Origin: Claveliimonas bilis
GTDB lineage: Bacteria > Bacillota > Clostridia > Lachnospirales > Lachnospiraceae
NCBI RefSeq assembly: GCF_030296775.1
Contig: NZ_AP027742.1
Location: 806,001-870,000 of the forward strand
Reading direction: 5' to 3'
DNA: 64,000 nt
The notes below the pieces were generated by a model. That model was not told the origin of the DNA. It saw nothing but the letters and a program-made list of their open reading frames with translations, and searched no databases. Positions 12,145 through 19,446 of this stretch are shown here, piece after piece. Within the stretch, counting starts at the first letter, position 1. Each line of letters opens with the position of its first letter. Position numbers and translations under genes: made by a program.

Positions 12145-12447
12145 ATGAATAACGAACGTTTGCATTATGGTGACAAGATCATTTACATGGAGGGTGTCGT
12201 TGTTGATGTTGATGATTGCAGCATCAGCGTAGACCTGAAAGGAAGGCTTGGTTTCTTAAAAGCCCCGAAGCGGATGTTTATCTGCGACACTGAACCCAAA
12301 GTAGGACAGGAAGTCGGATGGAACATGAGCTTCCCGGAGCAGCTGGGCCCGGAAATAAATGAGAAATATGTCAGCAATATAGAAAAAGAACGGCGCAAAC
12401 AAGAAGAAATGCGCGGGCAAATGGATAATAAGGAGGTTTCAAAATGA
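12145..12447 (+). CDS. Small conserved protein between PrdA and PrdB
   Basis: 100 aa, soluble, with a beta-rich N-terminal part (YGDKIIYMEGVVVDVDD...) and a charged C-terminal tail (ERRKQEEMRGQ). A similar gene sits between prdA and prdB in other proline-reducing clostridia (I recall a CBO2463/CBO2479-type domain name). No function is established. Its stop overlaps the prdB ATG (ATGA), so it is translationally coupled to the Sec subunit. A role in assembly or maturation is a guess. Confidence 0.8.
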   Translation: MNNERLHYGDKIIYMEGVVVDVDDCSISVDLKGRLGFLKAPKRMFICDTEPKVGQEVGWNMSFPEQLGPEINEKYVSNIEKERRKQEEMRGQMDNKEVSK

Positions 12448-13169
12448 GTTTAACGGTTGTTAAAGGTTTACAATCTGAAATTTTCGTTCCTATTACTCCT
12501 CCGGCTGTATGGACTCCTGTAACAAAAGAGCTGAAAGATATGTCTATCGCTCTTGCAACAGCTGCTGGTGTTCATAAGAAAGATCAGGAAAGATTCAATC
12601 TTGCTGGTGACTTCACATGGAGAAAAATAGAGAACACAACACCATCCAGTGAGCTGATGGTTTCACACGGTGGATACGACAACAGTGATGTTAACAAAGA
12701 CATCAACTGTATGTTCCCGATCGACAGAATCCACGAATTAGCTGCAGAAGGATTTATCAGAGCTTGTGCTCCGGTTCATGCAGGATTCATGGGCGGCGGC
12801 GGAAACCAGGAAAAATTCAAAGGTGAAACTGGTCCGGCCATCGCACAGATGTTCAAAGAAGAGGACGTAGATGCAGTTGTCCTCACAGCTGGATGAGGTA
12901 CCTGCCACCGCTCTGCAGTATTGGTGCAGAGAGCGATTGAAGAAGCTGGAATCCCAACAATTATTATTGCAGCTCTTCCTCCGGTTGTTCGTCAGACCGG
13001 TACACCTCGTGCGGTAGCTCCGTTGGTACCTATGGGTGCTAATGCGGGTGGTCCTCACAACGTAGAACAGCAGACACAGATTGTGAAAGCTACACTTGAG
13101 CAGTTAGTAAAGATTTCCACACCTGGAACAATCGTACCGCTGCCATACGAATATGTTGCTAAGATCTAA
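12444..13169 (+). CDS. prdB: PrdB, selenocysteine-containing D-proline reductase subunit
   Basis: Selenoprotein subunit of D-proline reductase. The in-frame TGA at 12894-12896 must be read as Sec151: the frame continues to TAA at 13167-13169 (241 aa), and the context TAG-U-GTCHR matches the PrdB active site (Sec151, Cys154). The SECIS-like hairpin, tRNA-Sec and selB in this window support recoding. A conventional caller would split it at 12896. AAGGAGG precedes the ATG inside the upstream gene. Confidence 0.96.
12911..12931 (+). promoter_or_regulatory. SECIS-like hairpin in prdB
   Basis: CTCTGCA (12911-12917) and TGCAGAG (12925-12931) form a perfect 7-bp stem around the loop GTATTGG. It begins 15 bases after the UGA, within the range where bacterial SECIS elements bind SelB. 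Confidence 0.8.
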
Positions 13170-13215
13170 TATCGGTCTGATATTAATGACAGGCACAATA
13201 TAATATTCAATATGT

Positions 13216-13246
13216 GGGCAGATGTATTTATACATCTGCCCTTTTT
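13216..13246 (+). terminator. Intrinsic terminator between prdB and prdD
   Basis: GGGCAGATGTA TTTA TACATCTGCCC (11-bp perfect stem) then TTTTT. It splits the prd genes into prdC-prdA-100aa-prdB and prdD-prdE transcripts, or attenuates the latter. Confidence 0.9.
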
Positions 13247-13263
13247 AAAAATAGCGTCAGGCC

Positions 13264-13269
13264 TATAAT
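13264..13269 (+). promoter_or_regulatory. Possible -10 box for prdD-prdE
   Basis: TATAAT 18 bases after the terminator T run and 25 bases before the prdD ATG. No good -35 is visible, so an independent promoter is only possible. Confidence 0.35.
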
Positions 13270-13294
13270 CGGCGCTGCTATTGGAGGTGAAACG

Positions 13295-14062
13295 ATGGTA
13301 GGAAATGAGACAGACTTAAGACGCCTGGTGATCAAGGCATTCCATATGACAGATGTGGAATGGGGCGAGCATAATGACATTAATGTAGATGGACATATGA
13401 CTGTCAGTAAAGAGATGATCGATCAGCTTGTAGCTGAAGAGGAACATATTGAGAAGATCGATATCCAGATCATCAAACCGGGCGACCACGACAGATGGAC
13501 GAATACGATCATGGATATCATTCCGATTTCTACAAAAGTTTTAGGGAAGATCGGAGAAGGTATTACACATACAATTACGGGAGTCTATGTGATGCTGACA
13601 GGGGTTGATACTGTCGGAAAGCAGACTCATGAGTTCGGTTCTTCAGAAGGAAATCTGAAGGAGCAGCTTTATCTGAATCGTGCAGGTACACCGGGAGATA
13701 ATGATTACATTATTTCTTTCGACGTTACATTGAAAGAGGGTATGGGACAGGAACGTCCGGGCCCGACGGCAGCACACAGAGCATGTGATAAATTTATCCA
13801 GTCTTATCGTGATAAGCTGAAAAAATTCAAGGGCGACAAGTGTACGGAGCGTCACGAATATCATGATGTAGTAAGACCTGGGAAAAAGAGAGTACTTATT
13901 GTAAAACAGGTAGCCGGACAGGGAGCAATGTATGATACTCATTTGTTTGCAAAAGAACCTTCCGGAGTAGAAGGCGGACGTTCTATTATTGATATGGGCA
14001 ATATGCCGATACTTGTTACGCCAAATGAGTACCGGGACGGAATTATCCGTTCCATGCAGTAG
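13295..14062 (+). CDS. prdD: PrdD, paralogue of the PrdA chain upstream of the cleavage cysteine
   Basis: 255 aa. Collinear with PrdA from about residue 160 to its processing site (RHEY..VVRPGKKRVLIVKQVAGQGAMYD parallels PrdA's RRPGKKKVVIVKEIMGQGAMHD). Function is not firmly known; proposed to be an accessory or structural partner of the reductase. Start ATG 13295 follows GGAGGTGAAACG. The frame is open back to 13214 only across the terminator, so the longer start is rejected. prdE begins 12 bases after its stop. Confidence 0.9.
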   Translation: MVGNETDLRRLVIKAFHMTDVEWGEHNDINVDGHMTVSKEMIDQLVAEEEHIEKIDIQIIKPGDHDRWTNTIMDIIPISTKVLGKIGEGITHTITGVYVMLTGVDTVGKQTHEFGSSEGNLKEQLYLNRAGTPGDNDYIISFDVTLKEGMGQERPGPTAAHRACDKFIQSYRDKLKKFKGDKCTERHEYHDVVRPGKKRVLIVKQVAGQGAMYDTHLFAKEPSGVEGGRSIIDMGNMPILVTPNEYRDGIIRSMQ

Positions 14063-14074
14063 GAGGTGAATGGT

Positions 14075-14551
14075 ATGGGTATTGGACCGTCAACAAAAGA
14101 AACATCTCTTCATCATTTCAGGGATCCACTGCTGGACGTTGTATCCAGTGACACTGATCTTGACCTGATGGGAATCATTATTGTAGGGACACCGGACGAC
14201 AATGAGGACAAGATGCTGGTGGGAACAAGAACTGCTGTCTGGGCAGAAGCGATGCGTGCCGATGGCGTTATCATTTCCTCTGATGGCTGGGGAAACAGCG
14301 ATGTTGATTTTACAAATACATGTGAGCAGCTGGGGACCCGCGGGATTGCAGTGACAGGACTGAATTTCAGCGGAACGGTAGCACAGTTTGTTGTAACAAA
14401 TGACTATCTGGATGGAATTGTGGATATTAACAAGAGCGCAGATGGAACTGAGACAAATGTAGTTGGAGAAAATAATGTAGTAGAACTTGACTGCAGGAAG
14501 GCAACAGCGCTCCTTAAGCTGAAAATGCGAAAAATGGAAGAAAAGAGATAG
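14075..14551 (+). CDS. prdE: PrdE, paralogue of the PrdA chain downstream of the cleavage cysteine
   Basis: 158 aa from ATG 14075, eight bases after AGGAGG; an in-frame GTG at 14066 overlaps the ribosome site. Its first residues MGIGPSTKETSLHHFRDP align with PrdA from Cys416 (CIGPASKEMSRHYWREP), so it replaces the processing Cys with an initiator Met. It lacks the residue that would form a pyruvoyl group. Likely accessory to the reductase; exact role unknown. Confidence 0.9.
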   Translation: MGIGPSTKETSLHHFRDPLLDVVSSDTDLDLMGIIIVGTPDDNEDKMLVGTRTAVWAEAMRADGVIISSDGWGNSDVDFTNTCEQLGTRGIAVTGLNFSGTVAQFVVTNDYLDGIVDINKSADGTETNVVGENNVVELDCRKATALLKLKMRKMEEKR

Positions 14552-14595
14552 CTGTGATTTTTATTATCGTGCAGCTTGAAGAATAAATCTTCATA

Positions 14596-14639
14596 AAAGA
14601 AAAGGCACGACATAAACTTATGTCGTGCCCTTTCTTTTT
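14596..14639. terminator. Bidirectional terminator after prdE and for the minus-strand RNA
   Basis: AAAAGAAAAGGCACGACATAA / TTATGTCGTGCCCTTTCTTTTT with T runs on both strands. It ends prdE on the plus strand and the candidate structured RNA on the minus strand. Confidence 0.9.
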
Positions 14640-14890
14640 GGTATGTCATTGAGAGGTTTTTCCTCGTTGCATTGCAGTTTTGTATATATACAAAGCTGGG
14701 GAAGATCTCCTGTTGGAGAAAAGTATATATAAATTGTAGTTACCCGGGCAGGAACGCTCTTGGGGAAAACGTTCGGCCCTGGATTAACTGCAATAGCAAC
14801 CATTGCTATCATCTTAAACAGCCCTACTTTAAAAATATAGCAGTCTCATCCCTTTGGGAGACCGCCTTTGCTCTCGTTGTTGTTTAAGAT
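14600..14890 (-). ncRNA. Candidate structured non-coding RNA, about 290 nt, family not assigned
   Basis: It has its own promoter (14897-14925) and ends at the terminator at 14596-14639. The predicted 5' end (about 14890) starts exactly at a 10-bp helix: plus-strand TGTTTAAGAT (14881-14890) pairs with ATCTTAAACA (14811-14820), enclosing a GTCTC/GAGAC hairpin. Further helices: ATAGCAA/TTGCTAT (14793-14809), GAACG/CGTTC inside GGGC/GCCC (14746-14779), TCTCC/GGAGA and an AT hairpin near 14680-14695. Reading frames here look non-coding. Compare with Clostridia RNAs such as the raiA motif; I cannot assign it. Confidence 0.6.
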
Positions 14891-14896
14891 GGTTAT

Positions 14897-14925
14897 AATA
14901 TAGCACCAGTTTTTTTGTGTGTCAA
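14897..14925 (-). promoter_or_regulatory. Promoter of the candidate ncRNA
   Basis: On the minus strand TTGACA (14925-14920), 17-base spacer, TATATT (14902-14897). Near-consensus and correctly spaced, with no protein start downstream. Confidence 0.75.
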
Positions 14926-18452: not shown

Positions 18453-19325
18453 TCAGTCATCCAGCAGAAAATCTTTTGCATATTCTAAAAATGCCCTGCA
18501 GGCCGGCGAAAGGTCATCGGGAGAAGAGTAAGCCAGTCCCAGCTGCCGGGAAACGGCCGGGGTGATATGCCGGGTTACAAAGTTCCCGTTTTGGCCACGC
18601 AGCAAGAGTCCTGGAAGGATCGTGATACCGAGATTTTGCTCTACCATAGAAAGAACAGAGAATTCGTTGATAGAGACAAAACGAATGTCAGGTCTGATGT
18701 TGTGTTCTTTCAGGACGCGGTGCACATCACTTCCGGGGGCATACTCTGTGATGACAAAGGGAGCTCCGTTCAGCTTTTCTATAGGAAGCGGATCGTAAGC
18801 GGACAGGGGATGACCGGAGGGCAGAACAGCCAGCAGCTCGTCATCCAGAGCAGGGAGAAAATGGTAATGGTGACCGGGCTGATAACTGAGAAAGCCGATG
18901 TCAACGCGGCGTTCTTGGATCCAGTCGGCCAGCTCTCCTTCCAGGCCTTCTGTAATTTTGAACAATATATCGGGATGGCTGCGCTGGAAAGCCTGTATGA
19001 TCCGTGGGATCCAGTGGATAGAGCAGCTCAGATAAGTCCCGATCGTAATGGTGCCGGTCTGGGCACCTTTCAAAGATGCGATTTCCTGGCGTACGACTTC
19101 GTCGGCATTTAAAAGAGCGCGTACGGCTGGAATGAGTGACTGTGCTTCCCGGGTGAGGGCAGTCCCGCTTTTATCCTTGATAAAAAGAGACAATCCCACT
19201 TCCTTTTCCAATGCTTTCATCATCTGGGTTATGCCGGACTGTGTATAGCCAAGCACCTCGCCTGCCCTTGTAAAACTGCCGTAATCATCTACGGCCAGCA
19301 TAACCTTCCATCTTTTGATATTCAT
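18453..19325 (-). CDS. LysR-family transcriptional regulator
   Basis: 290 aa. The N-terminal HTH is clear (DYGSFTRAGEVLGYTQSGIT); an effector-binding domain follows (GTITIGTYLSCSIHWIPRII...). Start ATG 19325 is placed five bases after GAGGA; the ATG at 19337 precedes it. Encoded upstream of the NSS and TSUP transporters on the same strand and divergent from the ribosomal operon, so it probably regulates the transporters (inference). Confidence 0.88.
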   Translation of the reverse strand: MNIKRWKVMLAVDDYGSFTRAGEVLGYTQSGITQMMKALEKEVGLSLFIKDKSGTALTREAQSLIPAVRALLNADEVVRQEIASLKGAQTGTITIGTYLSCSIHWIPRIIQAFQRSHPDILFKITEGLEGELADWIQERRVDIGFLSYQPGHHYHFLPALDDELLAVLPSGHPLSAYDPLPIEKLNGAPFVITEYAPGSDVHRVLKEHNIRPDIRFVSINEFSVLSMVEQNLGITILPGLLLRGQNGNFVTRHITPAVSRQLGLAYSSPDDLSPACRAFLEYAKDFLLDD

Positions 19326-19446
19326 AAAATTCCTCATTTCTGTTGCTTCATATTATATATAGTGTAAAATATAAAGGTGTTTGCTTTCTATGATAATAAA
19401 TAGTAACGGACACCGAGAAAAAATACAAGGAAAATAAAAAAAATAC

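Follow-up and report, generated by a model that had tools for sequence, protein, structure and literature searches.

To our knowledge, post-transcriptional regulation is little mapped in the Lachnospiraceae, a major gut family. Among the described RNAs that invite comparison with the locus examined here, 6S RNA forms one long hairpin with a central bubble. For the raiA motif, PMC11706538 reports eight base-paired regions and two pseudoknots. Regulatory RNAs that act through C-rich motifs are a second point of reference, the UCCC principle being stated in PMC3861533 and the C-rich regions of RoxS being treated in PMC5419742. Finally, a comparative-genomics study of gut bacteria lists 3161 candidate structured RNAs (Fremin and Bhatt, 2021; PMC8040213).

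We analysed a window of 64,000 nucleotides of the Claveliimonas bilis genome. Judged from its sequence, the minus strand from 14890 to about 14596 carries a self-standing gene whose product would be a conserved and folded RNA some 290 bases long. The family is real, conserved and, in what we searched (the candidate lists of Fremin and Bhatt (2021) aside), undescribed. It would be a new family of a known kind, the function of which we infer below.

Promoter, fold and ends of the RNA gene

The features of the locus, all on the minus strand, are as follows.

14897 to 14925, minus: promoter of sigma-A type, TTGACA-17-TATATT with an extended -10 TG (from sequence; conserved in relatives)
14596 to 14890, minus: predicted full-length RNA, about 295 nt (5' end placed from the promoter; fold z and homologues)
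14881 to 14890, minus: 5' arm of P0, the closing helix of the 5' domain (fold)
14831 to 14866, minus: 5' hairpin with a U-rich stretch behind it (19 of 21 aligned sequences have 5 or more T in the next 8 bases)
14811 to 14820, minus: 3' arm of P0 (fold)
14640 to 14801, minus: conserved 162-nt core with P1, P2, P3 and the 3' tail, model R1 (alignment, fold)
14786 to 14801, minus: 5' arm of P1 (consensus structure)
14743 to 14782, minus: P2 hairpin (two-sided changes in one or more relatives at 14 of 15 consensus pairs)
14759 to 14769, minus: P2 loop motif UUUUCCCCAAG (predicted unpaired probability of CCCC 0.94, averaged over 64 transcripts)
14683 to 14731, minus: P3 arm and apical hairpin (predicted fold)
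14692 to 14703, minus: internal-loop motif UUCCCCAGCUUU (predicted unpaired probability of CCCC 0.81, averaged over 63)
14666 to 14679, minus: 3' arm of P1 (consensus structure)
14653 to 14665, minus: GAGG-AAAAA-CCUC mini-hairpin, which can hide part of the tail (fold)
14639 to 14658, minus: almost invariant 3' tail AACCUCUCAAUGACAUACCA, a candidate pairing site (relatives)
14596 to 14637, minus: terminator hairpin, probably bidirectional and probably also closing the prd operon on the plus strand

An earlier sequence-only reading had claimed a near-consensus promoter with a transcript starting on the first base of a closing helix, and both points hold at the level of sequence: TTGACA-17-TATATT at 14925-14897 has 11 of 12 matches plus the extended TG, and 14890 is the seventh base past the -10 box and opens a 10-bp helix. 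The promoter is kept in 66 relatives, with at least 10 of 12 matches in 65, TG in 64 and a spacing of 17 in 62, the last two counts being biased because the picker favours both features. After three of the 66 upstream segments were dropped as too short, a score of at least 11/13 was reached in 61 of 63 relatives versus 7 of 315 shuffles. At the other end, the strong terminator that had been proposed is present as a hairpin at 14637-14596, but a simple scan scored it for the plus strand only, and we therefore read it as bidirectional.

The full RNA folds at -104.5 kcal/mol versus -63.5 +/- 4.6 for shuffled sequences (z -8.85; none of 200 shuffles as low), and the 162-nt core on its own reaches a z of -7.0. 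The several nested hairpins anticipated for this RNA are recovered as a multibranched core and the 10-bp closing helix P0, in which ATCTTAAACA (14890-14881) pairs with TGTTTAAGAT (14820-14811). In the consensus fold of the core, P1 encloses P2 and P3, and the tail follows. Covariation was assessed on the MAFFT alignment A1, which holds 50 of 53 non-redundant cores (L012 and L050, with reduced cores, and L067, with an insertion, were omitted), one of 67 distinct sequences (L037) having been dropped where its contig ends in the core. In this alignment 94.1% of cells pair versus 88.7% after shuffling, and 18 of 32 core pairs show two-sided changes in some sequence. Covariation scores 0.248, versus 0.157 +/- 0.006 for shuffled and at most 0.097 for slid versions; because the structure was derived from the tested alignment itself, the comparison with slid versions is biased in its favour. 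Support comes mainly from P2, where 14 of 15 pairs show two-sided changes (one member, L062, being misaligned there), as compared with three pairs in P1 and one in P3. The sequence-only reading had proposed BLASTN and covariation as checks on a structured RNA gene; the homologues found and the strong covariation of P2 support such a gene.

Two departures from the core layout were observed among the omitted sequences. Hespellia stercorisuis (L067:7288-7515) has an insertion of about 65 nt in the P3 apical hairpin, and in two loci (L012:1413-1520 and L050:5657-5764, the latter from a Hespellia MAG) the core is cut down to 108 nt, the P3 arm being absent and the P2 loop and the tail kept.

Conservation is uneven along the core. 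It is high in the tail (99.8%, partly by selection, since every member of A1 has the exact 20-mer), the UUCCCCAGCUUU loop (97%), P3 (97%), P1 (92%) and the loop of P2 (91%), but falls to 70% in the P2 stem and 60% in P3b, so that the motifs exceed the P2 stem. One genome (G257), which the tail-inclusive model recovered although it lacks an exact copy of the 20-mer, has another base at the first position there and still carries CCTCTCAATGACATACC. By prediction the tail is partly paired, with unpaired probabilities of 0.34 for CCUCUC and 0.60 for AAUGACAUACC, the value over the whole transcript being 0.38 (64 transcripts). CCUCUC is often paired with GAGG, and the GAGG-AAAAA-CCUC mini-hairpin is absent from some relatives (for example L009, L010 and L028). 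A switch between the tail and the 5' strand of P1 looked possible in the consensus by eye, was seemingly not kept in L057 and L011, and was set aside.

The 5' domain varies in length from 1 to 183 nt by predicted start and often consists of P0 around the GGCGGUUUCC hairpin; in another Claveliimonas bilis sequence (L017) it is almost identical to that of the window. RNAalifold on a 5'-domain alignment (A2, 21 of 24 selected sequences) returned the hairpin only, and P0 appeared in single folds.

Relatives, distribution and database searches

Blastn against 98 related genomes gave matches in 12, counting the window's own; most cover the 3' two thirds of the RNA, and one (L013) is apparently a chance match. 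The tail 20-mer occurs in 63 genome stretches, from Dorea, Faecalicatena, Claveliimonas, Sellimonas, Hespellia, Muricomes, Coprococcus comes and others as well as uncultured or unspecified MAGs, and in 31 of 397 same-family genomes, the reversed control giving 0. It had no match in viral contigs, and a phage origin was rejected on that ground. Covariance model R1, built on 50 sequences, found the RNA in 32 of the 397 same-family genomes, the window's own included, with one match in each. In a sample of 246 genomes of the order (same-family genomes included, under stricter filters), only the window's own genome matches. Under laxer filters the RNA is present in 5 of 9 other genomes labelled as the same genus and absent from the other 4, one of which is 82% complete. 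As far as we searched, the RNA thus appears only in Lachnospiraceae and unassigned MAGs.

No Rfam family fits the RNA, in line with the alternative, raised at the outset, that it might be something new. At gathering scores, Rfam matches only an S10 leader and a tRNA-Sec in the whole window, and six S10 leaders and one tRNA-Sec in 20 relatives' loci. Permissive searches of the region (E up to 5) and of one relative (L049) gave only matches far below threshold, including sau-5971 (Staphylococcus) and rli40 (Listeria). The tail sequence and its complement are absent from the literature text searched. The RNA is not described in the titles and abstract openings of the matches listed for small or structured RNAs of Lachnospiraceae or Dorea, nor in those for proline reductase with sRNA and for gut Clostridia with sRNA, and the excerpt of PMC6429828 does not mention Lachnospiraceae or Dorea.

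Candidate modes of action

We tentatively prefer, at a probability of roughly 45%, the reading of this RNA as an Hfq-independent regulator that acts in trans as an antisense RNA on several mRNAs through its C-rich motifs. The RNA would be transcribed from its own promoter and fold into a 5' domain and a three-helix core from which two CCCC motifs and a 3' tail rich in C and U are presented. Motifs and tail alike would pair in trans with the Shine-Dalgarno regions of several mRNAs and block their translation, as UCCC does in S. aureus RNAIII and the Rsa RNAs and C-rich regions do in RoxS/RsaE. Expression, pairing, targets and direction of effect are all inferred. Two features expected of a trans-acting sRNA of the C-rich-motif type are found here, namely C-rich motifs that are conserved and predicted to be unpaired, and a promoter and terminator belonging to the RNA gene, the latter by sequence only. 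Hfq (PF17209) had no match in 16 genomes, 5 of 14 controls being matched. On the 154 genes of the RNA loci, AAAACCUCUCAAU pairs better at start regions than inside genes (-1.47 kcal/mol versus -1.40 for the lowest of 30 shuffles) and is the only element to beat all 30 shuffles, narrowly; on these genes the start-region preference of the two CCCC motifs is no greater than that of base-matched shuffles, and the same holds for the tail's 3' half. Taken together, these observations lead us to favour antisense action over a role within a ribonucleoprotein.

Against this reading stand the frequent pairing of CCUCUC with GAGG in the predicted folds and the outcome of a search for targets of the tail. 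Near-complements (17-mer, up to 3 mismatches, the RNA itself excluded) number 86 in 12 genomes; the reversed control gives 76, and two congeners exceed theirs (G005, 18 versus 5; G009, 14 versus 7). Among near-complement sites common to several genomes (17 stretches examined), none is a convincing target. Shared sites lie mostly inside coding regions of near relatives; the one common to three genera (G279, G238 and G014) is in a near-identical gene, which we take to be integrase-like, and a possible gene start with a shared site, in a presumably truA-like gene, occurs in two congeners only. Across the loci, a single site complements 11-12 bases of the tail, and it belongs to one locus represented by two copies. 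We also rejected the idea that the tail pairs with rRNA or some other fixed RNA, as no near-complement is repeated (up to 3 mismatches; three sites besides the RNA in its own genome).

A tail that is almost invariant and has no conserved complement could equally be a protein site. The RNA may accordingly be read as a structured, perhaps abundant, housekeeping-type component of a ribonucleoprotein, its tail and C-rich internal loop serving as protein-binding sites as in 6S or raiA/ModT; this is the main rival to antisense action, though one that we hold to be rather unlikely. It would account for the near-consensus and conserved promoter, the single match in each of 32 genomes, a tail without conserved complement at start regions and the 97% conservation of the internal-loop motif, but it sits poorly with so narrow a distribution, which misses all but one genome of the order sample and four of nine congeners, and with C-rich motifs that suit antisense action. 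Somewhat more doubtful is a wider proposal, that of a new class of strongly transcribed structured RNA in Hfq-less gut Lachnospiraceae, which would work as a global regulator or ribonucleoprotein through the tail and the two C-rich sites while a 5' attenuator sets the ratio of two isoforms.

The genomic neighbourhood raises a further reading. Genes of the prd operon lie near the RNA in 46 of 64 loci, in convergent orientation in 39 (36 of them within 2 kb) and co-directionally in 7, where the RNA follows prd; at the remaining 18 no prd gene is in the stretch, several of these stretches being cut near the RNA. Other frequent neighbours are a TauE-like gene (33 loci; that of the window is below the Pfam cut-off), a YcxB-like gene (20 loci) and S10-operon ribosomal-protein genes, named from sequence. 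Of the seven flipped loci, six still have the YcxB-like or TauE-like gene on the other side, suggesting a self-contained gene that was turned round, perhaps once. Full-length PrdA is encoded by 28 of 32 RNA-positive versus 15 of 365 RNA-negative genomes (Fisher p 6e-28, ancestry uncorrected). The 7 flips in 46 loci and the four RNA-bearing genomes without full-length PrdA argue that the RNA is not an untranslated region. A prd leader, 3' UTR or antisense element was rejected, orientation and position not being fixed, and the flipped orientation, although possibly a single event, argues against any cis element.

In the window itself PrdA, PrdB, PrdC and PrdD were identified. A tRNA-Sec (RF01852, 8409-8502, plus strand, 63.8 bits) immediately precedes prdC where the D-proline reductase operon begins, and prdB (12444-13169, plus) has an in-frame TGA which, read as selenocysteine, yields a PrdB match (TIGR04483, 408 bits). 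Within the operon, 12145-12447 (plus) encodes a 100-aa CBO2463/CBO2479-domain protein (NF041553), the cluster of which recurs in 28 of 64 loci. At 13214-14551 (plus), PrdD precedes a distinct ORF that aligns with the C-terminal part of PrdA (153 bits over profile positions 415-567, short of the cut-off), and the two look like a split PrdA-like pair. Further along are a LysR regulator (18453-19337, minus), for which the best NCBIfam model is the selenium-metabolism LysR, below cut-off at 123.6 of 250 bits, and an S10-Clostridia ribosomal protein leader (RF03136, 19491-19585, plus, 90.2 bits), which 6 of 20 loci from relatives also have close to the RNA.

That the RNA specifically regulates D-proline reductase or the fermentation of amino acids (Stickland), tied to the neighbouring prd operon, we consider improbable, despite the proximity and the PrdA association just given and a tail that scores more than 2 sd above shuffles at the starts of 3 of 14 neighbour families (prdC 3.1, prdA/D/E 2.4, L3 2.4). 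The association is uncorrected for shared ancestry, and it has exceptions both ways: four of the 32 RNA-bearing genomes lack full-length PrdA (G257 among these is only 68% complete), and 15 genomes with PrdA lack the RNA even under laxer filters. Moreover, the tail is above the shuffled mean in all 14 families, and a general Shine-Dalgarno affinity may therefore explain the start-region excess. The frequent D-proline reductase neighbourhood nevertheless makes a link to amino-acid fermentation testable.

We likewise give little credence to a scheme of two products, in which the 5' hairpin and U-rich stretch would end a short transcript, read-through would give the full RNA and the 5' domain would be an attenuator. 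The U-rich stretch is of the type seen at terminators, and 19 of the 21 5' domains in the alignment have at least 5 T in the 8 bases past the hairpin, but the stretch is interrupted in the window's own RNA, and in 14 of 66 relatives the 5' domain measures 12 nt or less by predicted start, the core being kept without it.

A coding or dual-function RNA, with a frame through P1-P2 open in many relatives, is very improbable: 38 of 66 relatives have an ATG, GTG or TTG ahead of the frame, a stop recurs at codon 23 and the frame is kept to CAATT in 47 of 61, but it is lost there in 14 of 61, a Shine-Dalgarno-like site occurs in 1 of 66, P2 varies as a helix and the window's ORF has no Pfam match, so that a peptide, with start, Shine-Dalgarno and frame not consistently kept, was rejected. 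No credible protein had been expected, and neither the 64-aa ORF inside the RNA (14618-14812) nor a 71-aa ORF on the opposite strand matches Pfam at E up to 0.1, the scan having covered these two; an 81-aa ORF (14404-14649) begins in the tail and runs beyond the terminator.

Comparison with described RNAs

The covarying core and almost invariant tail offer an entry point, providing a model for annotation and sites to mutate. The sequence-only reading had suggested raiA as one known class to which the RNA might belong, an identity that found no support, the region having no Rfam match at gathering scores or at E up to 5. RaiA (RF03072) was rejected for this RNA after searches of the window, its own genome and 98 relatives all came back empty, although, as no positive control matched, its absence from the 98 relatives is not established. 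The RNA resembles the raiA motif/ModT in being a conserved structured RNA of similar size from Bacillota; three core helices are predicted for it, a count that leaves pseudoknots aside, against the eight paired regions and two pseudoknots described for raiA. 6S RNA (RF00013) was rejected because the genome's single match lies elsewhere (C1:1052606-1052788), and while the core is similar in size to 6S, it is multibranched. With the candidates of Fremin and Bhatt (2021), the RNA shares its origin as a comparative-genomics prediction from gut bacteria.

RoxS/RsaE, RNAIII and the other UCCC or C-rich sRNAs of Gram-positive bacteria are the systems on which our preferred antisense reading is modelled. 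The RNA stands apart from RoxS/RsaE and RNAIII by its multibranched core, its almost invariant tail, the lack of an Rfam match above threshold and its restriction, in the genomes searched, to Lachnospiraceae and unassigned MAGs. Like the Gram-positive C-rich sRNAs, it has a promoter and a terminator of its own, and like RoxS/RsaE and RNAIII it has conserved C-rich loops that are predicted to be accessible and could meet Shine-Dalgarno sequences.
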